This document shows positions 21,809-42,693 of a DNA stretch of 64,000 nucleotides, one piece after another. A program made the translations under genes and the position numbers. Position 1 is the first letter of the stretch. Every line of letters starts with the position of its first letter. This stretch comes from Streptomyces sp. NBC_00690. GTDB taxonomy: Bacteria > Actinomycetota > Actinomycetes > Streptomycetales > Streptomycetaceae. The notes under the pieces are model-generated. The model ran no database searches and was not told the origin of the DNA. It saw only the letters and a program-made list of their open reading frames with translations. The stretch is from positions 496,001-560,000 of the forward strand of contig NZ_CP109009.1 in assembly GCF_036226685.1 (NCBI RefSeq), in the 5' to 3' direction.

Positions 21809-22681
21809 TCACCACGGGTAGAACCCCCGGCCGGTCTTACGGCCGAGATCGCCATCGGCGACCATGCGGCGCAGTAGTTCGGGTGGCTCGAATCGGCCGC
21901 CGAGGGTCTCGTACAGATGCTCGGCGATACCGAGCCGGACATCGAGTCCGACGAGATCGGTCAGCCTCAACGGGCCGACCGGATGGCGGTATCCCAGGAC
22001 CATGGCGGTGTCGATGTCCTCGGCGGAGGCGACGCCCTCCTCGACCATGCGGATCGCTTCGAGTCCCAACGCAACGCCGAGCCTGCTGGTGGCGAAGCCC
22101 GGTGAGTCCCGGACCACCACGGGCGTCTTGCCCATCGTCCGGACCCAGCCGACCGCCCTGGCCACGACATCGGACGCCGTGGCACTGCCGGTGACCACCT
22201 CGACCAGACGGCTGGCGGGCACCGGATTGAAGAAGTGCAGTCCGATGAACCGGCTCGCGGGCGGCGCGGCGAGGGACAACTCGTCGATGGAGAGACTGCT
22301 GGTGTTGGTCGCGATGACGGCCGCTGCGTCGACGGCACGGGCGATGGCCCCGATCACCTTGGTCTTCAGGGCCGGTGCCTCCGAGACCGCCTCGATCACG
22401 AGTCCGGCGGACCCGATGCCGTCGATGGACGTGGTGGTCTGGAGCCCGGCCAGGGTCCGGTCCACCGTGCCGTCCAGGGTGCCCCGCTCAGCACTGTGCT
22501 CCAGCGCGCGGGCCACCCTTGCCCGGGCTGCCGCCGCGGCGTCGTCGTCGGCCTCGACCAGTACCACGGTGCTGCCCGCGAGGAGCAGGGCGTGGGCGAT
22601 GCCCGCACCCATCCTGCCCCCGCCGACGACGGCCGTCTCGGAGGGCAGTGTCACCACGGGGATCGGCTCAGACGGTTCCAT
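21809..22681 (-). CDS. 3-hydroxyacyl-CoA dehydrogenase
   Basis: A 290-residue NAD-dependent dehydrogenase of the beta-oxidation type. The N-terminal Rossmann domain has VVGGGRMGAGIAHALLLAGS and a later VLVEA acidic NAD-binding end. NTSSLSIDELS and GLHFFNPVPASRLVEVV carry the catalytic Ser and His. The C-terminal helical domain has VVVRDSPGFATSRLGVALGL and ends GRKTGRGFYPW. The ATG at 22,681 lies inside the end of the hydrolase gene (14-base overlap), so the two are coupled. It should oxidise the hydroxyacyl-CoA made by the enoyl-CoA hydratase of this operon. Confidence 0.92.
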   Translation of the reverse strand: MEPSEPIPVVTLPSETAVVGGGRMGAGIAHALLLAGSTVVLVEADDDAAAAARARVARALEHSAERGTLDGTVDRTLAGLQTTTSIDGIGSAGLVIEAVSEAPALKTKVIGAIARAVDAAAVIATNTSSLSIDELSLAAPPASRFIGLHFFNPVPASRLVEVVTGSATASDVVARAVGWVRTMGKTPVVVRDSPGFATSRLGVALGLEAIRMVEEGVASAEDIDTAMVLGYRHPVGPLRLTDLVGLDVRLGIAEHLYETLGGRFEPPELLRRMVADGDLGRKTGRGFYPW

Positions 22682-29057: not shown

Positions 29058-29450
29058 ACATTTGTGGTCCGGACGTCACACGGCCATCCGTACGCTTCAC
29101 CCCCGGCGCTGCCGCACCACTCCCGCGGACCCGGTCGCCGTCAGCCCATCGACGACCATTGACGACCATCGACGGCCCTGAGGGAAGCGCCCCTCGCACC
29201 CCCGCGTACGCCCGAGGCGGTCCCGAAGGCGGACCGGGTGTCGATCCCGCCGGCAACAGGAATCCAAAGATCTTCGAGCCGACTACTGTCCGGATGAATT
29301 CGGTCACGGGATGATGTGGTCACGCATCAGACGGGCCGCACGGTCCTGCCCCCTGAACGTGGTCCGCCGGGATCGGCGCGTACGCATGGAATGCCCCAGC
29401 TGCTCCGAGGGCCTGGCGAGAAGAACCCACTCCCGAGGGAGACCTGCGCC

Positions 29451-30818
29451 ATGGCACGCCACCAACCCAACCGCCGACTCGCCACCCTGCTCGACGAGGC
29501 CGACTGGAACCCGGCCGAACTGGCCCGCGCCGTCAACAGCCTGGGCCAGGCACAGGGACTGGCCCTGCGGTACGACCGCACATCGGTGGCCCACTGGCTG
29601 ACCGGGTCCCGACCCCGACCGCCCATACCCGACCTGGTCGCCTCGGCGTTCAGCCGCCGCAGCGACCGTCTCGTCACCACGGAGGAAACGGGCCTTGCAC
29701 ACCCCGGACGCCAGAGCGACGACTCCTTGCCAGAGGGCCCGGAGGGGACCGACGACGTGGTGAACGAACTGACCATCCTCAGCCGCGCCGATGCCGACCC
29801 CGCGCGCCGCGCGCCCCTCATCCGTCCTGCCTACAACATCGCCCCACCTTCGACACCGAACTGGACGTCCGAGCACCCCACCGTCGCGGCACCACGCCGT
29901 TCGGGCAACCGGGTCACACCACAGGAGGTTGAGACCCTCCAGGAGATGTCCCGCGTCTTCGCGAACCTCATGGAACGCCATGGCGGTGCACACGCCCGGT
30001 CGGCGCTCGCGACCTACCTCACCGACGACACCAGCCGTCTTCTCCTCGCACCCGCCACGCCGTCACTTCGTCGGCAACTCTTCACCGGCGCGTCGCAACT
30101 CACCCATCTACTGGCCCGGATGACCATGGACGCCGGGTATCCGAGTCTGGCCCAGCGCTACTTCACGGCAGCCCTGCACCTCGCCCGCCAGGCCGAGGAC
30201 CGACGGGTCTACGCGATCACCCTGCGGGCCATGAGCCTCCAGGCACTCCGGCTGGGGTTCCAGAAGAGGGCTTGGCAACTCGCCGACGCCGCCGTCGACA
30301 CCGCGGGGCCATCGGCCGATCCGGCCACCCTCTCCTTCCTCCTGAGCCAACGCGCCGTCACCCACGCCTACTCCCAGCAGCGCCGCAAGGCCGTCGACGA
30401 CCTCGCGGCTGCCGAGGTCCAGCACGATCGTGCCACCAGTCCCCCGGGGCCGTTCAGTTCCTACCCCAGGGCGGGGTTGGAATATCAGCGCGGTCAGATG
30501 CTCCTGGCGCTGGGGGACGCGACCCGGGCGGCCGAGGCCCTGGCGTCGTCGGCAGCGGCCCGCTCGGACGACCGGCATCGATCCAACGCCCTGACCCATG
30601 CGCGGCTCGCAGCGACGCTGCTGCCGCTGGGCCGTCTCGAAGAGTCCTGCCTGCACTGGCACGTCTTCCTCGACCACTACCCGAATCTCAGACTGGCGCC
30701 CGCGGAGCAGGCCCTCAGGCATCTACGCGAGTCCCTGCGCCCCTTTCGCCGTCAGACCCAGGCGGCCACAGTCCTCCATCGGGCTCGCGCGGTCACCCGA
30801 ACGAGTCCAGACCGCTGA
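29451..30818 (+). CDS. Helix-turn-helix/TPR transcriptional regulator-like protein
   Basis: A 455-residue protein. ATG at 29,451 follows GAGGGAG. Residues about 5-60 (RLATLLDEADWNPAELARAV, then DRTSVAHWLTGSRPRPPIPD) look like a helix-turn-helix of the type found in many Streptomyces XRE-like or Tat-signal-type regulators. Residues about 145-440 are helical TPR-like repeats (ASQLTHLLARMTMDAGYPSLAQRYFTAALHLARQAED is such a repeat). The DNA site and ligand are unknown. It precedes the six-gene vWA operon but 586 bases separate them, so it is not clearly part of that unit. Confidence 0.7.
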   Translation: MARHQPNRRLATLLDEADWNPAELARAVNSLGQAQGLALRYDRTSVAHWLTGSRPRPPIPDLVASAFSRRSDRLVTTEETGLAHPGRQSDDSLPEGPEGTDDVVNELTILSRADADPARRAPLIRPAYNIAPPSTPNWTSEHPTVAAPRRSGNRVTPQEVETLQEMSRVFANLMERHGGAHARSALATYLTDDTSRLLLAPATPSLRRQLFTGASQLTHLLARMTMDAGYPSLAQRYFTAALHLARQAEDRRVYAITLRAMSLQALRLGFQKRAWQLADAAVDTAGPSADPATLSFLLSQRAVTHAYSQQRRKAVDDLAAAEVQHDRATSPPGPFSSYPRAGLEYQRGQMLLALGDATRAAEALASSAAARSDDRHRSNALTHARLAATLLPLGRLEESCLHWHVFLDHYPNLRLAPAEQALRHLRESLRPFRRQTQAATVLHRARAVTRTSPDR

Positions 30819-31404: not shown

Positions 31405-32082
31405 GTGAGCGTCGCGCCGCGCTTCATGGCCGCGAAGGCACGTCCGTTACCGGTCCTCGTGCTGGCGGACATCAGCGGGAGCATGAAGGAGCCCGAGGAG
31501 AAGATCGATGTGCTCAACGAGTGCATCCGCCGCATGCTCGATGACTTCGCCTCCGCCGATGTCGGGCGGGGTGCGATCCATGTCGGCGTGATCGCCTTCG
31601 GCGGAGGGGGCGCGACGGAACACCAGCGGTTGGTACCCGCCACCGAGGCGATCTGGACCGATATGGAAGCCTTCGGAGGCACCCCGCTCGGCGCCGCGCT
31701 CCGCCTCACCCGGGACGTCCTCGCCGACGAGGCGGTGATCCCCGCCCGCGCGTTCTCTCCCACCGTCGTACTGGTCTCCGACGGGATGCCCAACGACGAC
31801 TGGGAGGAAGGGTTGGACCTGCTGCTCGCCTCGCCCCGAGGGGCCAAGGCCAATCGACTCGCGGTCGCCATCGGTGGCTCGGACATGACCGAGCCGGCGA
31901 AGGCGGTGTTGCGCAGGTTCGTGAGCGACGAGTCCACCGGTGTGTTCGAGGCACAGGAGGTCGGGCGGATCCAGCAGTACTTCCGCTGGGTCACCGTCAC
32001 CGTCACCCAGCAGGCCAGGAGCACCCGCCCGGGCGTGTCACCGGTGCTCAGCCCCGAGGACCTGTCGGGCTTCGGCGCCTGA
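31405..32082 (+). CDS. vWA-domain protein (TerY-like), gene 1 of the six-gene operon
   Basis: A 225-residue cytosolic protein made almost wholly of one von Willebrand A domain. The metal site is intact: LVLADISGSMKEP (D22-x-S24-x-S26), GGTPLGAAL (Thr) and VLVSDGMPNDDW (Asp). This form is nearest to TerY and the vWA proteins that accompany protein kinases in bacterial TerY-P-type conflict systems, where they act as metal-dependent protein-binding scaffolds. GTG at 31,405 follows GGAGGG. Codon 15 is TTA, so translation should need the bldA tRNA. The kinase gene begins 35 bases after its stop. Confidence 0.88.
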   Translation: MSVAPRFMAAKARPLPVLVLADISGSMKEPEEKIDVLNECIRRMLDDFASADVGRGAIHVGVIAFGGGGATEHQRLVPATEAIWTDMEAFGGTPLGAALRLTRDVLADEAVIPARAFSPTVVLVSDGMPNDDWEEGLDLLLASPRGAKANRLAVAIGGSDMTEPAKAVLRRFVSDESTGVFEAQEVGRIQQYFRWVTVTVTQQARSTRPGVSPVLSPEDLSGFGA

Positions 32083-32116
32083 GCCGACTGATCCCACTCT
32101 CGAAGGGAACCGATCG

Positions 32117-33538
32117 GTGGCATCACGGTGGGACCTCGGCGGTCTGCTGCGGCCCGTGGAGGACGAATACCATCAGTTATGGCCGTTGTCGCATTCCATC
32201 GGAGTCGGCGGCCAGGGCGAAGTGTGGCTGGCCAGGGGCGGACGCACGGCCATCAAGATCATTAGCGCCCCGACGGAAGAGGCCGCGGAAGCGGTGCACG
32301 CGCGACTGCGGCGCATCCAGCGACTCCCGCTCGACGGACTGCCCCTGGCAATTGTGCAGGCGCTCCTCGCACCGCCGAAGCTCGGATACGTCATGGAACT
32401 CATCGATGAGATGGTCCCGCTGGACGCACTGTGCTTTCCCGATGAGGACGATCTGGCGGCCTGGTACCTGCGCACCGGGGGCCTCGACCGCCGGCTGCGG
32501 CTGCTGGCGAAGCTCGCGGACGCCATCGCCAGGTTGCACGCGCGGGCCATCGTCTATCAGGACCTCTCGCCGTCGAACGTCCTCGTCTCGGCCTCCCGCG
32601 AGCAGGAAGAGATCCGACTGATCGACGTTGACAACCTCGGGCTCGTCTCGGCGATCGGGTCCGGGGCCGTCTACACACCGGGCTACGGCGCCCCGGAGAT
32701 CGTCCGAGGTCGCAGCGGGCCCACCACCCTCACGGATGCCCACGCGCTCGGCGTACTGGTCTTCGAGACCCTGACCGGCAGTCATCCGTTCCGGGGCGAT
32801 GCGGTCCTGGACGCCGACCCCGACTACCAGCAGGAGTACGCCGACCGCTTCCGGCTTCCCTGGATCGACCACCCCACCGACCGCTCCAACGAGTGCACCA
32901 ACGGCATCACACCGCGCGAGGAGTTGATGTCCGCCAAGCTGTGGGACCTGGCCGGCCGGTGCTTCGGTGCCGCGGTGGAGGATCCGAGGGTCCGCCCGTC
33001 CGCCGCCCTGTGGGCCGCGGCGCTGCACTCCGCGGCGGGTCAGACCGTGACCTGTCCGGAGTGCGATTGGGTGTACCGGGCGATCGCACCCTCCTGTCTC
33101 CTCTGCGGGCGGCCGACCGATCCCTCCTGGGTACTGCGTCATGGCATCACCTGTCCGGTGGGCGTGGAACCGGAGCCGGGCAACGATGACGGTCCGCCCT
33201 GCAACAGATCGGCGGAGGTGCCCTTGCCCGACTTCACTGTTCTCCAGCCCGCCGCCGACACCACACTGACCGCGCGCCACGCCGCCCCGGCGCCTGACCG
33301 GCCCGACGTCCCCGTCGCACGGTTGCGGTTCGACGGGCGGGACGCGACCGTGCTGAGCCTCGCCCGCGAAAGCCTCTGGCTCGATCACGACGACGGCCGC
33401 CCCTGGCGGGAGATCAGACAGGGCGGCCAGGCCGTCGTCCCGGTGGGCGATCTCGGCCGAACCTGGACCCTCCACTTCGGAGCGCGCGATTCCATCCACC
33501 GTTGGGTCCGGCTGATGCGGCTGGCGGTGCCCCGTTGA
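32117..33538 (+). CDS. Atypical Ser/Thr-kinase-like protein with zinc ribbon, gene 2 of the operon
   Basis: A 473-residue protein; GTG at 32,117 is the first start after the vWA stop with a fair ribosome site (GAAGGGA). The kinase domain (about 25-310) has SIGVGGQGEVWLARGGRTAIKII (Gly loop and Lys). The catalytic loop is IVYQDLSPSNVLV instead of HRDLKPxN and the metal loop IDVDNL instead of DFG; both Asp and the Asn are kept, so it may be active. C-x2-C pairs follow (CPECDW...CLLCG), a zinc ribbon, then a beta-rich C-terminal domain. These altered loops are typical of kinases paired with TerY-like vWA proteins. Codon 21 is TTA. Confidence 0.85.
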   Translation: MASRWDLGGLLRPVEDEYHQLWPLSHSIGVGGQGEVWLARGGRTAIKIISAPTEEAAEAVHARLRRIQRLPLDGLPLAIVQALLAPPKLGYVMELIDEMVPLDALCFPDEDDLAAWYLRTGGLDRRLRLLAKLADAIARLHARAIVYQDLSPSNVLVSASREQEEIRLIDVDNLGLVSAIGSGAVYTPGYGAPEIVRGRSGPTTLTDAHALGVLVFETLTGSHPFRGDAVLDADPDYQQEYADRFRLPWIDHPTDRSNECTNGITPREELMSAKLWDLAGRCFGAAVEDPRVRPSAALWAAALHSAAGQTVTCPECDWVYRAIAPSCLLCGRPTDPSWVLRHGITCPVGVEPEPGNDDGPPCNRSAEVPLPDFTVLQPAADTTLTARHAAPAPDRPDVPVARLRFDGRDATVLSLARESLWLDHDDGRPWREIRQGGQAVVPVGDLGRTWTLHFGARDSIHRWVRLMRLAVPR

Positions 33539-33561
33539 CTCCACGACAGAAGTCACCCGCA

Positions 33562-36500
33562 ATGCCGGAACGCATGCCCGGCGCTTCGGTCCTACTGTCA
33601 CTGATGTGGCAGCGAATACCCACCGAGTTCATCGGAACGCCCCTCGCCGACGGCACCGAGGTCCGCTTCCACCACCGTCCCACCGGCCAACTCGACCTGA
33701 CCACCGAGGACGCCACCTACGGCGTCCGACCGGCCGGGCCCGAAGACGGACGAAAGCTGGAGCAGCTGCGCGCGGCAGGCTCCAGCTCCGTCGTAGTGAC
33801 CGCGCACAGGGTCACACCGCGCCCACCGGTGGCGCGCCTGCCACGACAGTCCCGGCCGGGGAGAGCCCCGGAGACCGATGAGCCGTTCACCGTCCGGGCC
33901 CATGTCTACGCACCCGCCACAGGACTCGCCCTACCGCTCACCACGGGCCTCCATCTCGATGTCACCGACGCCGTGGTCGAGGACGCCCGCAGGTACACCG
34001 ACCGGGCCGACACCGCCGACGCCGCATCGACCATCGCGTTCCTCGCTCGCGAACTGCTCCTGGCCCCGCGGCACGGGGCACCGGCCGAGGCCCGACGCAT
34101 GGTGGTGTCGGCGGGTCCGGCGGGCAACCTCGCGGCAGGATTCCGACTGCACGGGCCCCAGTTGATGGCCGACGTCGAGAAGCACGGCGACGGCTACCGG
34201 CTCACGCGTCTCATCAGCGCGGTCCACGACAGGTCCGGAGACTCGGCGCCCAAGGCGCTGGCGGTCGGCGCTATCGAGCTGCGCGACATGACGGCGCGGC
34301 AACGCGACCGGGTGCTGATCCAGCGCGGACTCGACCTCGTGGCGGGCCAGGACAGCTATCTGGCCATGTGGGACAGGTACCAGGAGCTGGAAGCCCACCA
34401 CATCCGCCGGCGGATCACCGACTTCGGAGCGATCCGCTACAGCCGCGTCCGGGTCGAGCCCGACGGCCGCTGTGCCTTCACCGTCCATCTGGGCGGGGCG
34501 CTGCCGCGCACCCGTGCCGTGTTGGAGAACGCGACGACGGTCGAACGGATGGAGATAGAGGCCGCGGCGGACGTCCCGGACTCGGTGACCAACACCGCCG
34601 TGACCGACCGCGAGTGGCTGGTGGCCTCGCGCGCCCAGCGCAGCGGTGCCTGGGTCGGGGAACCACTCGGCTACGACGAGGTGACCGAGACCCTGCGGCT
34701 GGCCGGAACCCTCCACGACCAGCGGGACCCCGCTCCCAAGGGATGGCTCTATCTGGCGCACCGCGGCGACCAGCGCCGGCTCGACCGGCGCGAGAAGGCG
34801 ATGCAGAAGCTGCGCACCGACGGGACGCACATCCCCGCGCTGCCGACCCTGTTGGAGGGCGGTGCCTGGCCACAGCCGGCCCAGCGGCGGATCACCCGGC
34901 TCTCCCGTGCCGCGCTCGACTGCTTCTTGCCGCACGGACCGACGCCTGCCCAGCTCAACGCCGTGCTGACCGCGCTCAACACACCCGATCTGGCCGTCAT
35001 CCAAGGGCCTCCGGGCACCGGCAAGACCCAGGTGATCGCCGCGCTGGTCAATCAGTTGGGCGACCTCGCACAGGGGGGCGATGTCTCGGGCAGCACCCTG
35101 CTCACCAGCTTCCAGCACGCGGCGGTGGACCATCTGGTGACCCGGGGCTGGGTCTTCGGGCTTCCGCCGCTGAAGGTGGACTCGCGTGGCCGGGGCAGCA
35201 GCGTCGCCCTGGACACCTGGCGGATCGAGGCGGCCCGCTCGGTCGACCTGCGGTTACGCGAACGCCCTACGGGTCGGCATCTGGCCGCGCGGCGTGCGGC
35301 TGCCGACCTGGCCGCCGCCTATCGCGCAGCCCCCGTCCCTCCTGAGTATCTGACGCAGTTCCTGGACCAGGTCCTGTCGGAACTCTCCGACATCGCGGAA
35401 CCCTCACTGGTCCATGAGCTGCGCGCCCGGCGCGAGGCGGCGCGGGAGCAGCGGCATCGTGCCGTCGCGGTCGCGGACTCCGAGACTCGTGCGGAACTCC
35501 TGCCCTACGTGCGGTCGTTGCGCTGTACCGAGACGGGGTTCCTGGATGACGGGCCTTCGTGTGCGCGTGCGCTGCTCACCCGGCTGGAACTGGCGGACAG
35601 CCCGCTGCTGGAGGGCGTCGCCTTTCGGGAACCCCTGCTGGCCGCCTGCCGTGAAGCGGTTCCGACTCCGGACCTCCTGCACTCTCTGGCCGAGTTGCGC
35701 GACGCGTTACTCGACCGTTTCACGGCACGGATACGGCTGCCCGAGGTCACCGTCGCAGATCCCTTGGTGGTGGACCTCCTCGACCGGGTCGCCGCTCAAC
35801 TCTCCGAGGCCGTGACACGGTCGCCCGACGCCGTGGCCGCGGCACTGCTCGACTACCGGGACGATCTGCGCAACGATCCGGAGGGGGTCGACGCGACCCT
35901 GCGCGCGTACACCGTCTCGCTGGCCTCCACCTGTCAGCAGGCCGTGTCCAAGGCGATGGCCGATGTCGGACGGCCGGACGGGGTCTTCGAATCGGTCATC
36001 GTGGACGAGGCGGCACGGGCCAATCCGCTCGATCTCCTCATCCCGCTGGCCCAGGCACGTCGCCGCATCGTGCTGGTGGGTGACCACATGCAGCTTCCGC
36101 ACATGCTGGAGCCCGATGTGGAGCGCGAACTGGGTTCCCTGGGAGACCAGATGCGCGACCGGCTTCAGGAGAGTTTGTTCCAGCGGCTGGCGCGGCAGTG
36201 GAAGCACGGTTCGTCCGACTCCCACCCCCGGTTCGCCCGTCTCGACACACAGTTTCGAATGCATCCGGTGCTGGGCACCTTCGTCAGCGACAACTTCTAC
36301 GAGGGAACCCTGCGCAACGGTCGCGACGCGTCCGAGTTCGCGCACGGCATCGATCGGTATGGGGAGTTGCCCGCGGTGTGGCTCCGGGTCCCGCTGTCCT
36401 CGGGTGGCGAGACGAAACGGGGCACCAGCCGGGCCCGGCGCGCCGAGGCTGCCGCCATCGCCACCGAGATCGTCCAGTTGATCGACCGGTACCCGGGGCT

Positions 36501-36939
36501 GACCTTCGGGGTCATCGCCTTCTACGCCGCACAGGTCACGGAGGTCTGGACCGAACTGAAGAAGGCCGGTATCGCGGAGTTCACCGAAGCCGAGGGGTGG
36601 CGGCCGATCCCCAGGCTCTGCCGGGACGAGAACGGCACCCCGCTGGACCGACTGCGGGTGGGCACCGTGGACGCCTTCCAGGGAATGGAGTTCTCCGTCA
36701 CCTACCTCTCGACCGTACGCAGCTGCGCGCCGGAGGCCCGTACGGACGCCAGAAGGAACTACGGGCACCTGACCGTGAAGAACCGGCTCTGCGTGGCGAT
36801 GAGTCGTCAGCAGCGGCTGCTGGTCGTGGTCGGCGACGACGCCATGTTCGGGCCGGGAGCTCCGGAGGCGGTCGAACCGCTGACCGAGTTCCTCGCGCTG
36901 TGCAGAAAGGAACGGGACGGCCGTGTCCTTCGACCGTAG
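33562..36939 (+). CDS. UPF1-like superfamily 1 helicase, gene 3 of the operon
   Basis: A protein of about 1,125 residues. Residues 1-440 are an N-terminal extension of unknown fold. The SF1 helicase core has GPPGTGKTQ (482-490), VIVDEAARANP (DE at about 815-816), VLVGDHMQLP (motif III), LDTQFRMHP (about 895), VGTVDAFQGMEFSVTYLSTV (about 1034) and NRLCVAMSRQ (about 1074). This is the UPF1/SMUBP-2/Dna2-type set, so it should translocate along RNA or DNA using ATP. A long insert (about 560-770) lies between motifs Ia and II. Two TTA codons occur (35,254 and 35,707). The start is uncertain: TTG 33,535 or ATG 33,574 are alternatives. Confidence 0.88.
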   Translation: MPERMPGASVLLSLMWQRIPTEFIGTPLADGTEVRFHHRPTGQLDLTTEDATYGVRPAGPEDGRKLEQLRAAGSSSVVVTAHRVTPRPPVARLPRQSRPGRAPETDEPFTVRAHVYAPATGLALPLTTGLHLDVTDAVVEDARRYTDRADTADAASTIAFLARELLLAPRHGAPAEARRMVVSAGPAGNLAAGFRLHGPQLMADVEKHGDGYRLTRLISAVHDRSGDSAPKALAVGAIELRDMTARQRDRVLIQRGLDLVAGQDSYLAMWDRYQELEAHHIRRRITDFGAIRYSRVRVEPDGRCAFTVHLGGALPRTRAVLENATTVERMEIEAAADVPDSVTNTAVTDREWLVASRAQRSGAWVGEPLGYDEVTETLRLAGTLHDQRDPAPKGWLYLAHRGDQRRLDRREKAMQKLRTDGTHIPALPTLLEGGAWPQPAQRRITRLSRAALDCFLPHGPTPAQLNAVLTALNTPDLAVIQGPPGTGKTQVIAALVNQLGDLAQGGDVSGSTLLTSFQHAAVDHLVTRGWVFGLPPLKVDSRGRGSSVALDTWRIEAARSVDLRLRERPTGRHLAARRAAADLAAAYRAAPVPPEYLTQFLDQVLSELSDIAEPSLVHELRARREAAREQRHRAVAVADSETRAELLPYVRSLRCTETGFLDDGPSCARALLTRLELADSPLLEGVAFREPLLAACREAVPTPDLLHSLAELRDALLDRFTARIRLPEVTVADPLVVDLLDRVAAQLSEAVTRSPDAVAAALLDYRDDLRNDPEGVDATLRAYTVSLASTCQQAVSKAMADVGRPDGVFESVIVDEAARANPLDLLIPLAQARRRIVLVGDHMQLPHMLEPDVERELGSLGDQMRDRLQESLFQRLARQWKHGSSDSHPRFARLDTQFRMHPVLGTFVSDNFYEGTLRNGRDASEFAHGIDRYGELPAVWLRVPLSSGGETKRGTSRARRAEAAAIATEIVQLIDRYPGLTFGVIAFYAAQVTEVWTELKKAGIAEFTEAEGWRPIPRLCRDENGTPLDRLRVGTVDAFQGMEFSVTYLSTVRSCAPEARTDARRNYGHLTVKNRLCVAMSRQQRLLVVVGDDAMFGPGAPEAVEPLTEFLALCRKERDGRVLRP

Positions 36940-38371
36940 GGCGTCCGTGTTCCAGCTCAGCGCCCCGCCGCAGGGCCACTACCGGCCGGTGCTGCTGCCC
37001 GTGTGGGTCTACCAGGCGATGGCTCCCACGGGCTTCTCCCGGACCTTGGACACGTTCCAGATGGTGGTGCTCCGGCTGTGCGCCGCGGGGGTGCGTGACA
37101 TCGGAGAGCTCTCGGGGCTGATCGGCCTCGACGGCTCGCTGTGCCGCACGGTCGTCGCCCGGCTCATGGAACGCGGGTTGATGGGATCGGGGCTGAAGCT
37201 CACCGAGGCGGGGCGGGACACGGTCAGGCTCGGTGAGGTCGCGGAGACCGAGCCACGGCTGATCCGTGTCTTCCAGGACCCGGGCACCGGAGCCCTGCTA
37301 CCGCGCATGTTGATGGCCGATCCCGTACGTGCCGATGTGCGCGGGTACCGCGGTCGCCAGGTGACCATCCAGTTCGGTACCGCCGGAGCCTCAAGGGAAC
37401 TCAATACGCTGGCGCTCGACGGCGACGCGGACCCAATGCGGCCTTCCGAACGGGATGTGCTGGAGGCGTGCCGGGGGCACGACATGGCCGCACGCGGCAT
37501 CCGTGGCAGCGCCCGCAACACCCGCCCGACGGCTGGAACCTCCCAGCGGATCGGGTTCCACGGTTCTCGTACCCCGGCCTACCTCGTGTGCTACCTCATT
37601 GCGGACGACGACGGCTCGGGACGGATGTGGACCGTGCTCGACCCGTTCGCCGTGGGTGACGGACGGGTCTTCGCCGACGTTCTCGCCGCCCGGGTCGAAC
37701 GGGAACCCGATCTGGCCCGTCTGATCGAGACCCTCGCCGGCCCCGACCGTCGGGACCGTGTCTTCGCCGCCCGCCGAGCCGATCGGGAGCTGGCGGAGGA
37801 CGCCCGGGCCGACGTGGTGGCGACGCTCGGCGAGCAGATCCGGGAGCACCCGGAGGTCCTGGCGCACCTGGCCGACATCGAGTTGGCCCGGGTCAAGGAC
37901 ACCCCGCGGGAGCGCGAGAACCTCGTGCGCAACGCCATCCGTGTCTTCGAGTGCATTCTCCCCGGGCTCAACGAGAAGTACCCGGCTTCGCTGCCGCCGT
38001 CGAACGTGTCAGAGGTGCGACAACGGGAGTTCGTCCTCACGGCCCAACGGCTCGGTGCCCTCTCGGTGCCGCCCGAGATGCGGCACCACTCGGGGAGCGG
38101 GCCGCGCGGCGGCTTGGCCGGGGACGTCATCAAGGCCGTCTGGGCGGCCCGGGGCAACCCCGACCACCCGTTCGCGATGTTCATCAGGCATCGCCCCGCA
38201 CTGCTCGAAGACCTGGAGCGCTCGCGCATTCTGCGCAACAACGCGACCCACGCGTCCGTCGGGCCGCCTGCGTCCGACGAGTTGGAGAACATCCGGACGC
38301 TCGCCTATGAAGCAGCCGCCCACCTGCTCGGGATCGAGTGCCGTCTGACCGGCCACGAGAAAGCGAATTGA
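36923..38371 (+). CDS. Winged-helix protein with C-terminal HEPN-like motif, gene 4 of the operon
   Basis: A 482-residue protein of no recognised family. GTG at 36,923 follows AAAGGA and overlaps the helicase end by 17 bases. Residues about 40-110 look like a winged helix (LDTFQMVVLRLCAAG, IGELSGLIGLDGSLCRTVVARLMERGLM, KLTEAGRDTV). A beta-rich middle domain (about 115-260) follows. The last 170 residues are helical and contain RNNATH at 438-443, matching the R-polar-x3-H active motif of HEPN ribonucleases, followed by a helix (LENIRTLAYEAAAHLLGI). I infer it could be the effector or sensor of the operon, but the fold assignment is not certain. Confidence 0.6.
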   Translation: MSFDRRASVFQLSAPPQGHYRPVLLPVWVYQAMAPTGFSRTLDTFQMVVLRLCAAGVRDIGELSGLIGLDGSLCRTVVARLMERGLMGSGLKLTEAGRDTVRLGEVAETEPRLIRVFQDPGTGALLPRMLMADPVRADVRGYRGRQVTIQFGTAGASRELNTLALDGDADPMRPSERDVLEACRGHDMAARGIRGSARNTRPTAGTSQRIGFHGSRTPAYLVCYLIADDDGSGRMWTVLDPFAVGDGRVFADVLAARVEREPDLARLIETLAGPDRRDRVFAARRADRELAEDARADVVATLGEQIREHPEVLAHLADIELARVKDTPRERENLVRNAIRVFECILPGLNEKYPASLPPSNVSEVRQREFVLTAQRLGALSVPPEMRHHSGSGPRGGLAGDVIKAVWAARGNPDHPFAMFIRHRPALLEDLERSRILRNNATHASVGPPASDELENIRTLAYEAAAHLLGIECRLTGHEKAN

Positions 38372-38374
38372 ACC

Positions 38375-40756
38375 ATGGGAAAGAACACCGGCCGCGGCCG
38401 ACGGACCAATCGCGCCAGGTCGAGAGGGCCGGTGGGGCAGGGGCAGGCCACACCCCCCGCGTCCGGTCCGACCGCGCCCAGTGCACCGGCTCCTGCACCG
38501 ACCAACGCGGCGCCGCGTCTGCACGAGGACGACGACGCACAGGCGTTGTTCGACGAGATCCGGCAGTTGGCGAGCGAATCGGAATCGCTCCTGACCACAA
38601 GGGACGAGCCGAACAGCGACACGACCGAGTTGGAGCGCGTCTGGGCGGTCTTCCGCGCACTGGCCCGGCGCCAGGCCGAAGCGGTGGACGCCCTCACCGC
38701 GCACGAGGAACGGATACGTGCCGAACGGTCAGCGCTACGGGCGGACGCAACCGAGCGAGCGGATGAAGCAGCCGCCCTCCGGGAGGAACACGATCTCCTC
38801 GATGCACGCGCCACCCTGCTGGACCGTAGAGAGGCCGAGTTGGAGGCCCGGCAGCAGAAAGCCGAGCTGCGCTCCACCGAACGTCGGCTGGAAGTGGCCA
38901 GGGAGCTGGAGGTGTGGGTGGCCGACCACCGCCGCAAGGCGGTCGAGGCCCTGGAGGCGGAGCACGACGCCTGGCGCACGCGCTGGGCCGAGACCCAACA
39001 GCGGCTGTCCGACGCCCAGGGGGCGATGGACCAGCGCGAGAGCGACTTCGCCCAGCGCGAGAGGGATCTGCGGTCGCAGCAGTCGCGACTGAAGATGGAC
39101 GAGGAGGACATGGCCCATCTGCGCAAAGTCCTCAAGGAGCAGCAGACCTCCCGTGAGGAGCGGTTCGAGCGTCAAATCGACGCCAGAACGACCCAGCTGG
39201 CCCAGTCGGCGGAAGAGGACAGGCGCCGTGTGCAGGTCCTCACCGAGGCCAATGAGCGACTGAACGCCCGACTGTCCGAGCAGGAGGGCTCGTTGGCCGT
39301 GCTCGGTGGTCAGACCCCGGACCGCATCGCCGAGCGCATCGCCCGGCTCCAGGCCGAGAACGCGCGGCTGACCGAGGAGATGGCGACTTCGCCGCGGGTC
39401 GATGCCCAGATGCTCGTCCGGCTCCAGGAGCAGGTCCGACAGTTGTCCGTCGACAACGAGGAGTTGGTCAGGGAGCGGGGGGAGCTGGAATCCTCCCTCC
39501 AGCGCGATCGCATCGCCGTCAACGAGCGGCAGAACTATCTGGACCTGAACAACTACCTCCAAGCTGCGAACAGCCAGATCCGGCAGACGCTCGACGAGGA
39601 GGCCGCGAAGCTCAACGCCACCGCCGAGGCCGGAAAGAAGGGACTCGCCTTCCCCGCCTGCTCGCGGATGGACCTGGACTTCGGCACCCCGCAACCGTCC
39701 GTCACGCACCCGCCGCAACTGGGTGACCTCGTCGACCAGATGCAGGCGGTGATCCTTCAGCACGGTCGGCTCGCCTACCGCCGCTCCGATCTGCGTCTGG
39801 TGCTGGCAGGCATGGCCATGAGCCGGCTGCATCTCTTCCAGGGCATCAGCGGCATCGGCAAGACAGGACTCGGCCGGGCTTTGGCCACGGCTTTCGGTAG
39901 CGCCGGCAGTGTCGCTGTCGTCCCCGTACAAGCGGGTTGGCGCGATCCGCAGGACCTCATGGGGTACTACAACAGCTTCGATCGGATGTTCTACGAGTCC
40001 GAGTTCACCAAGGCCCTGTACCGGGCCCAGTGCCCGCAGTTCAGGGACCGTCCGTTCTTCATCGTGCTCGACGAAATGAACCTCTCCCATCCTGAGCAGT
40101 ACTTCAGCGGTGTTCTCTCGGCCCTCGCGATCAAGGAAGGCCCGCGGCTGGCATTGACCACAGCACCGGTGCGCAACCCTCCACACCTGCTCATCGACGG
40201 CACCCATATCTCCGTACCGGACAATGTGTGGTTCATCGGAACGGCCAATCACGACGAGACGACCGTGGGCTTCGCCGACAAGACCTACGACCGGGCCTTC
40301 GTCCTGGAGCTTCCCTGGCAGCACCCCGAGTTGTCCGATGACACGACCGGACTGCCTGATCCCCTGGGCCACCGAGCCCTCATGGGGGCGTTCGACGAAG
40401 CCCGCAGCCGGTACGCGCAGCAGGCCACAGCCGTCATCGACTTCCTGGACATCGGATGGCGCGGCCGGTTCGCCGAAGACCTCGGGATCGGTTGGGGCAA
40501 TCGGCTCGAACAGCAGATCAAGGATTTCGCCCCGGTCGTGATCGCCGCCGGTGGCAGCCTGGGGGAAGCGGTCGACCATGTGCTGGCCACTCGCGTCCTA
40601 CGATCCGTCGGTGGCCGGTACGACATCCACGCGGACACGTTGGACGGACTGCGCGCCGACCTCGTGGAGAGTCTGCGGGAGTTCGACGGAGCCCATGACC
40701 CCGTGGCGACCGACCGACTGTTGAACAGCGCGATCCGGTCGCGTGGCCGCCGATGA
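38375..40756 (+). CDS. Coiled-coil McrB-type AAA+ ATPase, gene 5 of the operon
   Basis: A 793-residue protein. After a low-complexity start, residues about 45-420 are an almost unbroken Glu/Arg/Gln-rich coiled coil. Residues about 455-780 are an AAA+ domain of the McrB group: LFQGISGIGKTGLGRALATA (Walker A, 490-497), VQAGWRDPQDLMGYYNSFD, RPFFIVLDEMNLSHPEQYFS (Walker B DE at 566-567) and VWFIGTANHDETT (sensor 1). McrB is the GTP-driven motor of the McrBC restriction enzyme. Here the usual DNA-recognition domain is replaced by the coiled coil. It starts three bases after gene 4 and overlaps gene 6 by ATGA, so all three are co-translated. Confidence 0.88.
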   Translation: MGKNTGRGRRTNRARSRGPVGQGQATPPASGPTAPSAPAPAPTNAAPRLHEDDDAQALFDEIRQLASESESLLTTRDEPNSDTTELERVWAVFRALARRQAEAVDALTAHEERIRAERSALRADATERADEAAALREEHDLLDARATLLDRREAELEARQQKAELRSTERRLEVARELEVWVADHRRKAVEALEAEHDAWRTRWAETQQRLSDAQGAMDQRESDFAQRERDLRSQQSRLKMDEEDMAHLRKVLKEQQTSREERFERQIDARTTQLAQSAEEDRRRVQVLTEANERLNARLSEQEGSLAVLGGQTPDRIAERIARLQAENARLTEEMATSPRVDAQMLVRLQEQVRQLSVDNEELVRERGELESSLQRDRIAVNERQNYLDLNNYLQAANSQIRQTLDEEAAKLNATAEAGKKGLAFPACSRMDLDFGTPQPSVTHPPQLGDLVDQMQAVILQHGRLAYRRSDLRLVLAGMAMSRLHLFQGISGIGKTGLGRALATAFGSAGSVAVVPVQAGWRDPQDLMGYYNSFDRMFYESEFTKALYRAQCPQFRDRPFFIVLDEMNLSHPEQYFSGVLSALAIKEGPRLALTTAPVRNPPHLLIDGTHISVPDNVWFIGTANHDETTVGFADKTYDRAFVLELPWQHPELSDDTTGLPDPLGHRALMGAFDEARSRYAQQATAVIDFLDIGWRGRFAEDLGIGWGNRLEQQIKDFAPVVIAAGGSLGEAVDHVLATRVLRSVGGRYDIHADTLDGLRADLVESLREFDGAHDPVATDRLLNSAIRSRGRR

Positions 40757-42693
40757 GCGGCAGGGAGGCGAGCGAACCCGACGCTGATTCTCCGCAGGTC
40801 CGTCATCTGATGACCCTGTCGGCGCGGCTCGCCGGGCTGACCACCACTCTCGACGACTGGCTCGCCATGCCACCGATCACCCTCGACACCGGTGAGGAGA
40901 CCATCGCCCTCCCACTGGAGGAGGTCTTCGAACGGGAGTCGGGCGCGCTGCGGGCCGTGTGCAACCGTCCCTACACGCGTCTGCGGACGATCGAGGAACC
41001 CATGCCCGCGTCGCGAGTGCGTTCGATCGCGCCCGGAGCGGCGACACGGCTGGCGGCGCACCCGGAGGACTGGGCCTCGCACACCCTGGCCGGGGTCCGG
41101 CCACACCGTCTGTTGGCCCGGCGCAGCGAGGAGGATCCGGACATCTACGAGAACCGGATCGCCGTCGGGGTCCTGCATCTGATGCGATCGCACCTCCAAC
41201 AGCGCATCGCCAAGGTGAGCGCGCTGAACCAGATGGTCAGTGATGTGCAACAACTGCGGATGCCTTCGGAGAAGAGCGCTTGGAGGGCCCGTCGCGACCT
41301 CGCAGGACTGCTGCGGAACATCGACGATTCGGATCGGCACCGGGCCGCGGCCGAAGCCCGGCTGGGCGAACTGGAAGCCGCTCTCGTCGATGTGGAGACC
41401 ATGCTCGGCTCGCCGCTGGCCCGGGCGATCGGCCACCGCGGGCCGCCACCAGGCGATCTGCACGCCACGAATCTGCTCACCGCCGATCCCGGTTACCGCA
41501 GGGTCGCCAGGCTGTGGGAGGCGTGTACGGCGAACGTGGGGGCGCCCGCGGAACCGGGGGCCGAACGCCGTCAGGAAACGGACCTCGCCTTTCGGCGCTT
41601 CAGCGCCCTCCTCCTACTCCTGGCCTGCCGACTGCTGGGGGCGACACCGGTCGCCGGCCAGCCTGCTCCCACTCCGGGCACGACGTCATGGTTCCGGTTG
41701 CGGGGCGCTGAGCTGGCAGTCGAGTGGACTGCCGCTGGCGACTTCGTCCTCCGTTGGAGGGGCAGTCCCGTGCTGCGGCTTCTGCCCGTCCTGACCGATC
41801 TGTGCACCGCACCGGACATCGCCTCCTTCGCCGCTGCGATCAGTGCGGTCGGGGAAGCCCGACCGTTCGCCGATGGGGTGCGGGACCTGGTCGTCTATCC
41901 CGGCTCGCTGCCGTCGCGCCAGAAGGCCACGCCCGAGGTGGCTGCCGCCGCGTATGCCGTCGGACACGGCACGGTGGGCGGTCCGGAAGGTTCGAGGGCG
42001 GTGGACGTCGCGCCGCTGTCACCGCTGGAGATCTTCAGCGTGAGCCGTCTGGTGCGGGCGATGCACTGGGCCACGTTGGGTGCCGATGCGAGGGGCTATC
42101 CGCATCTGGTGCCCATGTCCGCGGGTGAGCGATCAGCGTTGGCGGACTGCGACTGGGTCGAGCCACGTGCCCATGGGGTCGCGGTCGTACGACCGCCCCT
42201 GCCCCAGGAATTGGACCGGCTGCCCGTGCTGCTCACCCCGCCCCATCCTCGCCAGGGCGGACGCCGAGCCGCCGAGAGCGAGAAACGGCGGATCCATGCC
42301 CTGTGTACGGAGCTGGAGGACGCGGGTCGGGCCACGGCGTTGCTCGCGGTGTGTCCGGTGTGCGCCAAGACCGATCCTCACCGACCGACTTCCTTCAAGC
42401 CGCGCACGGGGGACCTCTTCGCCGCCGTCTGCTCCTCCTGCCAGACGCGATGGGAACTGCGTCGCTGCACCTCCTGCGACGACACGTTCCCCTTGCTCCA
42501 TCCCCATGGACACGCCGCCTCCGGCACCGTCGAATCCGAACTCGATCGCCGCCTGGGAGGGGCACTGTTGGCGGTCCCCTGCTGGTCCGTGCTCCATACG
42601 GAGCAGGCTGTCTGCCCCACCTGCGGCGCGTGCGGCCAGACTCCCCCAGCCTCGGAGTGTCCCCGCGGCTGCCGGGCCGGTGCCGGAGCCTGA
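40753..42693 (+). CDS. McrC/DUF2357-like protein with C-terminal zinc ribbons, gene 6 of the operon
   Basis: A 646-residue protein overlapping the ATPase gene by four bases. Residues about 60-290 resemble the N-terminal part of McrC-like DUF2357 partners: RLRTIEEPMPASRVRSIAPGA, then DIYENRIAVGVLHLM (Y-E-N-R at 132-135; DUF2357 has a similar E-N-R-F-V) and a helical hairpin. The expected C-terminal PD-(D/E)xK nuclease motif is not obvious. The last 113 residues have many C-x2-C pairs (534/537, 560/563, 572/575, 621/624/627, 636/640), consistent with zinc ribbons. I infer it is the ATPase partner and may have swapped nuclease for zinc-binding or target recognition. A hairpin terminator follows. 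Confidence 0.6.
   Translation: MSGREASEPDADSPQVRHLMTLSARLAGLTTTLDDWLAMPPITLDTGEETIALPLEEVFERESGALRAVCNRPYTRLRTIEEPMPASRVRSIAPGAATRLAAHPEDWASHTLAGVRPHRLLARRSEEDPDIYENRIAVGVLHLMRSHLQQRIAKVSALNQMVSDVQQLRMPSEKSAWRARRDLAGLLRNIDDSDRHRAAAEARLGELEAALVDVETMLGSPLARAIGHRGPPPGDLHATNLLTADPGYRRVARLWEACTANVGAPAEPGAERRQETDLAFRRFSALLLLLACRLLGATPVAGQPAPTPGTTSWFRLRGAELAVEWTAAGDFVLRWRGSPVLRLLPVLTDLCTAPDIASFAAAISAVGEARPFADGVRDLVVYPGSLPSRQKATPEVAAAAYAVGHGTVGGPEGSRAVDVAPLSPLEIFSVSRLVRAMHWATLGADARGYPHLVPMSAGERSALADCDWVEPRAHGVAVVRPPLPQELDRLPVLLTPPHPRQGGRRAAESEKRRIHALCTELEDAGRATALLAVCPVCAKTDPHRPTSFKPRTGDLFAAVCSSCQTRWELRRCTSCDDTFPLLHPHGHAASGTVESELDRRLGGALLAVPCWSVLHTEQAVCPTCGACGQTPPASECPRGCRAGAGA

Follow-up and report, generated by a model that had tools for sequence, protein, structure and literature searches.

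Six closely spaced open reading frames (ORFs) on the plus strand of a 64,000-nucleotide stretch of Streptomyces sp. NBC_00690 (RefSeq assembly GCF_036226685.1, contig NZ_CP109009.1, positions 496,001 to 560,000; hereafter the window) form a tight unit at window positions 31405-42693. This operon is probably a CoCoNuT (coiled-coil nuclease tandem) resembling Type II, in an actinobacterial version that lacks a PP2C phosphatase; as such it would be a relative of Type IV restriction systems with a probable role in RNA-cutting phage defence. CoCoNuTs are a class predicted from sequence analysis by Bell, Sahakyan, Makarova, Wolf and Koonin (2024, eLife; PMC11090510), who defined the types by GTPase phylogeny together with gene context and predicted that Types I-III attack RNA; the literature searched revealed no test of a Type I-III CoCoNuT against phage. 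The class has thus been known since 2024, and what is new in detail is the phosphatase-free actinobacterial form and a possible effector swap in nearby relatives. A reading made from the sequence alone had proposed six tight plus-strand genes with much the same domains, which Pfam, PADLOC and a structure model bear out, and a multi-part conflict system, which agrees with the literature on CoCoNuT. Its suggestion that the six-part combination was an undescribed, unnamed system was rejected, as the set and its order correspond to the Type II CoCoNuT in the published description (PMC11090510).

Gene content and likeness to Type II CoCoNuTs

The window shares with Type II CoCoNuTs a CnuH helicase, a CnuE effector with one RxxxxH motif, an NxD CnuB with a helical N-terminus, and a DUF2357 CnuC with a dead nuclease and a zinc ribbon, all in one operon with the vWA and kinase-zinc ribbon proteins of TerY-P. 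One mark of a CoCoNuT, a HEPN or other nuclease gene beside a missing or inactive McrC nuclease, is found here as the RxxxxH motif of gene 4 and the lack of [D/E]xK in gene 6. The operon differs from Type II systems in having no PP2C gene and no N-terminal beta-sandwich in CnuC, and these two departures do not appear in the consulted sections of PMC11090510, whose main text does not use the words Streptomyces, Actinomycetota or Actinobacteria. Type III-A CoCoNuTs also combine TerY-P, CnuH, a winged helix-turn-helix (wHTH)-HEPN CnuE and an NxD CnuB; however, their CnuC has Hsp70-like and HEAT parts and their CnuE two HEPN domains, whereas gene 6 has no Pfam match to Hsp70-like or HEAT parts and no room for them in 646 amino acids, and gene 4 carries a single RxxxxH.

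Gene 1 (31405..32082) encodes a TerY-like vWA protein of 225 amino acids with an intact metal-ion-dependent adhesion site (MIDAS; PF13519/PF00092; PADLOC TerY match, 6.2e-6), 39-42% identical to homologues from five plasmid loci. Gene 2 (32117..33538) encodes a TerY-P Ser/Thr kinase with a C-terminal zinc ribbon (PF00069, 2.4e-17). Its ORF is open from 31940 and as listed overlaps the vWA gene; a GTG at 32117, 34 nucleotides past the vWA stop and preceded by GAAGGGA, is the likelier start. All four zinc-ribbon cysteines are invariant in the six aligned sequences, as are the kinase catalytic residues, and an inactive kinase was rejected on that ground. Gene 3 (33502..36939, its start being either TTG 33502 or a downstream codon such as ATG 33562) encodes a CnuH-type, UPF1-like superfamily 1 helicase (PF13086/PF13087, AAA_11/AAA_12; PADLOC MkoA, 2.9e-79), whose nearest PDB entries are UPF1, NAM7, SEN1 and SMUBP-2. 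Its N-terminal region can be aligned with that of other CnuH proteins; in Type II CnuH this end is described as containing SmpB-like and RelE-like domains (PMC11090510).

Gene 4 (36923..38371) encodes the CnuE-type effector, a winged helix followed by a C-terminal helical bundle that we read as HEPN. Its only RxxxxH, RNNATH at residues 438-443 (38234..38251), lies at the C-terminus, and across the aligned family the histidine is present in 54/54 rows and the arginine in 41/54. Weak HEPN_RiboL-PSP matches cover the CnuE C-terminus in 4/54 rows, the window protein not being among these. Fold searches with the gene 4 structure did not reach the C-terminal bundle, and HEPN was absent from the rows listed; a PDB profile search returned only weak coiled-coil and wHTH-type rows. 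The remaining 13/54 rows (L025, L026, L030, L033, L034, L035, L037, L043, L051, L061, L076, L080 and L085) keep the motif histidine and lack the aligned arginine, often with an adjacent glycine; a shifted motif and a weakened nuclease are candidate readings of these sequences.

Gene 5 (38375..40756) encodes CnuB, an McrB-type NTPase with conserved Walker A and B motifs (PADLOC PDC-M26A, 1.1e-29) and a long helical N-terminal half. The NxD GTPase signature that marks the CoCoNuT branch is present as N625-H-D627 followed by E (40247..40255), and N-x-D-E, with NxD replacing NxxD, occurs in 86/86 McrB rows. The front half is charged and almost free of proline and glycine across about residues 43-294; a heptad test gave no clear periodicity, and gene 5 showed weak cross-matches to ATG16, a phage scaffold and ZorA and no PDB match at E 0.1. 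Among the operon proteins, wHTH and AAA_5 were also matched below the Pfam cut-off.

Gene 6 (40753..42693), which starts inside an ATGA overlap with gene 5, encodes CnuC, a DUF2357/McrC homologue of 646 amino acids (PF09823, 2.6e-7) with a dead PD-(D/E)xK-like fold, a zinc ribbon and four CxxC motifs. Its AlphaFold2 model (predicted local distance difference test score, pLDDT, 90.8) places the McrC of the solved McrBC complexes 6hz4 and 6ut6 in the top Foldseek rows and has no match at E 0.001 among viral structures. The motif [D/E]xK is absent in 57/57 McrC-homologue rows from residues 325-352, the strands judged by eye to be its expected site, and from the whole of residues 300-485 in the window protein; scattered [D/E]xK strings occur elsewhere within 300-485 in 13/57 relatives. 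As modelled, gene 6 is an McrC-like fold lacking the nuclease motif, and DNA attack by this protein, entertained in the sequence-only reading, is not supported and was rejected. The model begins with helices at 14-29 and 33-38, with no N-terminal beta-sandwich. The DUF2357 anchor is preceded by 65 residues in the window protein. This count is 63-65 across a group made up of the window protein, five Streptomyces relatives and L049, and 99-138 in the other 50/57 rows, counting from starts bounded by the end of cnuB and with five of the nine Streptomyces relatives in the alignment; the Streptomyces clade thus has a CnuC N-terminus shortened by 34-75 residues.

Conservation of the gene set and absence of the phosphatase

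A gene 5 profile run against species genomes revealed at least 537 relatives, of which the best 80 were kept, and the six gene profiles and a PP2C profile were run on every ORF of the kept loci; the counts therefore describe near relatives rather than a census, and, the loci having been picked by gene 5, they show that gene 5 is rarely found without the others, not the reverse. Sixty-seven of the 80 loci could be judged, their sequence extending at least about 7.8 kb upstream from gene 5. In 65 of these the complete six-gene set lies on a single strand in the same order, although gene 4 scores no more than 31-36 bits in four of the 65. The genes are conserved together, a point on which the sequence-only reading had asked for a check. 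The two exceptions are an Archangium locus with a fragmented gene 3 and no vWA or kinase gene (L031), and Actinomadura macra, with gene 5 alone (L046).

A tblastn search of plasmids with gene 5 gave 264 records, none with 80% query coverage, and six were inspected. Plasmids of Deinococcus (where the kinase is annotated as hypothetical), Pseudanabaena, Polaromonas and Rhodoferax carry vWA, PP2C, kinase and helicase genes and genes 4, 5 and 6 consecutively, and a Nostoc linckia plasmid carries a six-gene row without PP2C. The Skermanella plasmid was set aside as a different locus with RNA-repair genes: in Skermanella rosea pSR-1 (L007, 3350-14428) an AAA and nuclease-domain pair with a gene 5 match lies beside Hen1, polynucleotide kinase-phosphatase, RtcB and PrfH. 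Genes for sigma-54-interacting regulators lie upstream of the seven-gene operons on the Polaromonas and Rhodoferax plasmids (L004:1319-2857 and L005:2078-3595); these perhaps represent the link to RtcR-like CARF regulators described by Bell et al. (PMC11090510).

The window shares with the TerY-P triad a vWA protein with MIDAS and a kinase-zinc ribbon protein, but lacks the PP2C phosphatase, leaving a pair rather than a triad. Seventy loci, 65 from genomes and five from plasmids, carry both a vWA and a kinase gene on their contig, and PP2C was present in 44 of them. It was absent in all 22 loci named as Actinomycetota, nine of which belong to one Streptomyces clade, and in the window, and in only four of the 48 remaining loci: L006 (Nostoc), L032 (an unplaced metagenome-assembled genome, MAG), L054 (Myxococcota) and L080 (Planctomycetota). 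A PP2C profile built from 45 sequences found no match in the PP2C-less loci at E 1, and at E 10 the window gave none either. In a quickly built tree of CnuB, which holds only loci found with the gene 5 family, PP2C presence and absence require a minimum of four state changes. One branch cuts off the actinomycete rows, unclassed rows not counted, with an Armatimonadetes MAG (L057) inside; because its support in the Shimodaira-Hasegawa-like approximate likelihood ratio test (SH-aLRT) is only 8, a single PP2C loss is not shown. A phosphatase is likely encoded elsewhere in the genome. PP2C is not counted as core by Bell et al., whose main text uses the word phosphatase once and PP2C never and mentions terrabacterial Type II systems without TerY-P; the supplement may list PP2C-less loci (PMC11090510).

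A possible effector exchange and a proposed mechanism

Four related actinomycete loci, from Nocardia (L040), Lentzea (L041), Micromonospora (L042) and Agromyces (L079), encode a CnuE of about 405-425 amino acids with no aligned RxxxxH; single RxxxxH strings in the individual proteins do not align, and profile comparison revealed that the front part of the short CnuE matches other CnuE proteins and ends before the motif. All four carry an extra gene for a protein of 347-382 amino acids directly before the vWA gene, touching or overlapping its 5' side (L040:2338-3447, L041:2391-3539, L042:2044-3087 and L079:1510-2580). The encoded protein has an NYN-type RNase-like front, four invariant cysteines in its middle and an FHA end, and several aspartates are likewise invariant. 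Pfam FHA matches range from E 3.5e-6 to 8e-4, that of L041 being just under the cut-off, and all four proteins match the Zc3h12a NYN RNase family below the cut-off (E 5e-4 to 0.04). Of the 87 loci scanned, only these four have the FHA-NYN gene, and the window lacks it. A Mycobacterium MAG locus of the same clade (L039) has a contig that ends before the FHA-NYN position, and the contig of L057 begins at gene 5. Among 50 genomes of the phylum, eight had matches to the FHA-NYN profile, each only to positions 210-338, the FHA end.

FHA domains bind phosphothreonine (PMC10470591), and the FHA-NYN gene could therefore connect the kinase with an RNase, a possible effector swap steered by the kinase. 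Its presence in the four relatives without the HEPN motif is expected if the kinase steers an RNase. The words FHA, NYN and PIN domain are absent from the main text of Bell et al. (PMC11090510). Our tentative proposal, held with less than even confidence, is that actinobacterial CoCoNuTs form a lineage with a TerY-P switch that has lost its own phosphatase, in which the kinase controls RNases that can replace one another. The RNase would in most cases be the HEPN end of CnuE and, in a single clade (Nocardia, Lentzea, Micromonospora and Agromyces), a separate FHA-NYN protein that would read the phospho-mark made by the kinase. If so, phosphorylation would trigger RNA cutting and activation could be one-way.

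The gene identities, their order and conservation, and the intact vWA, kinase, helicase, HEPN-type and GTPase motifs follow from sequence or model; beyond these, we infer RNA cutting, phage defence and each step of the following mechanism. The vWA protein and the kinase would sense infection and switch on, by phosphorylation, a single RNA-acting machine formed by CnuH and CnuE. The co-linearity of genes 2-4 with PADLOC's Mokosh type I models, detailed below, counts in favour of the CoCoNuT reading: MkoA, as we interpret the matches, unites a kinase and a helicase in one protein, which suggests that the kinase works on this machine directly. Gene 5 would form a ring powered by GTP and stimulated by its partner, gene 6, which would keep the McrC fold without cutting. 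The HEPN end of gene 4 would then cut phage RNA, host RNA or both, resulting in restriction or abortive infection. As the operon has no PP2C, turning the response off would require a phosphatase from another part of the genome, or would not take place. According to Bell et al., who cite Gao et al. 2020, TerY-P-like modules act against phage on their own (PMC11090510). The phosphatase-free Streptomyces version, with six genes, offers a smaller system, in a genus with standard laboratory hosts, for asking whether a vWA-kinase pair switches an RNase via a UPF1-like helicase, and the possible effector swap in the relatives provides a sharp test through the phosphosite recognised by the FHA domain.

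Alternative readings and genomic setting

Among 31 genomes of the genus and 21 relatives, gene 5 occurs only in the window's own genome, which fits an accessory cassette. Such patchy presence, together with the plasmid location in five inspected records, argues against a stress or metal-response switch, in which the vWA-kinase pair would sense stress from metals or at the envelope, and the cell's own RNA would be trimmed by the helicase-HEPN part. A metal-sensing phosphorylation switch is a hypothesis for TerY-P that Bell et al. cite (PMC11090510), and the operon neighbours are mostly metabolic, transport or regulatory; yet none of nine window neighbours tested adjoins the operon in its nine closest Streptomyces counterparts, a comparison that covered 1-3 kb on the upstream side and at most about 8 kb on the downstream side, and we consider such a switch unlikely.

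A system of the Mokosh type, in which the kinase would have separated from the helicase, HEPN would have replaced the PLD effector and an McrBC pair would have been attached, appears quite unlikely. It draws on the kinase, helicase and winged-helix parts, which are co-linear with the MkoA and MkoB models of PADLOC: MkoA positions 18-226 match gene 2 (1.1e-11) and 293-1089 match gene 3 (2.9e-79), and MkoB positions 6-296 match gene 4 (1.3e-16). The same pattern recurs in the Pseudanabaena proteins, with MkoB at only 2.2e-4. The kinase part is the weak link in this sequence comparison because gene 2 has stronger matches to other kinases in PADLOC (mad6, 3.9e-17; PD-T4-6, 1.4e-16). Mokosh, as Millman et al. 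reportedly found in 2022, protects against phage. For Type I, PLD-like and NERD domains are given (PMC10952713), and no Pfam match to PLD or NERD was found at E 0.1 in the six operon proteins, which have instead a HEPN-type end, a separate kinase, and additional vWA, McrB and McrC genes. Moreover, genes 5 and 6 belong to the operon in 65/67 judgeable loci, a count biased by the selection on gene 5. A common origin of genes 2-4 and Mokosh would not conflict with a Type II CoCoNuT. Bell et al. do not mention Mokosh in their main text (PMC11090510).

Restriction of DNA by a Type IV system, with the McrB-McrC pair cutting modified phage DNA and the other genes assisting, is highly improbable: gene 6 keeps the McrC-like fold seen in the Foldseek rows 6hz4 and 6ut6 but lacks the nuclease motif, a loss reported for all Type II and III CnuC (PMC11090510). 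The operon shares with E. coli McrBC the McrB-type AAA+ motor and the McrC-like fold, and differs from it in having NxD in place of NxxD, a long helical N-terminus and no nuclease motif. Ternary vWA-MoxR systems were likewise rejected, since in the parts consulted (PMC7159879, PMC12839542) the vWA is paired with MoxR and not with a kinase and McrBC.

Around the CoCoNuT operon, about 41 ORFs were kept by coding bias, and 20 neighbours were scanned with Pfam, revealing metabolic, transport and regulatory families, one DUF6309, and three proteins without a match at E 0.001 (at 21864, 29316 and 45550); no defence genes were seen among the 20 in this Pfam scan. Across all loci compared, the only match to the nine flanking genes was a weak one in Archangium. 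A search for an empty site in the GST-gene neighbourhoods of five same-genus genomes found no other tested flanking gene in common with the window except weak matches of 27-29%. The regulator-like protein encoded upstream on the same strand (29316-30818) has only distant homologues, the best in 20 other genomes being 39-40% identical across most of the protein and 48% across half of it, so that the insertion ends could not be set. This regulator may have arrived with the operon.
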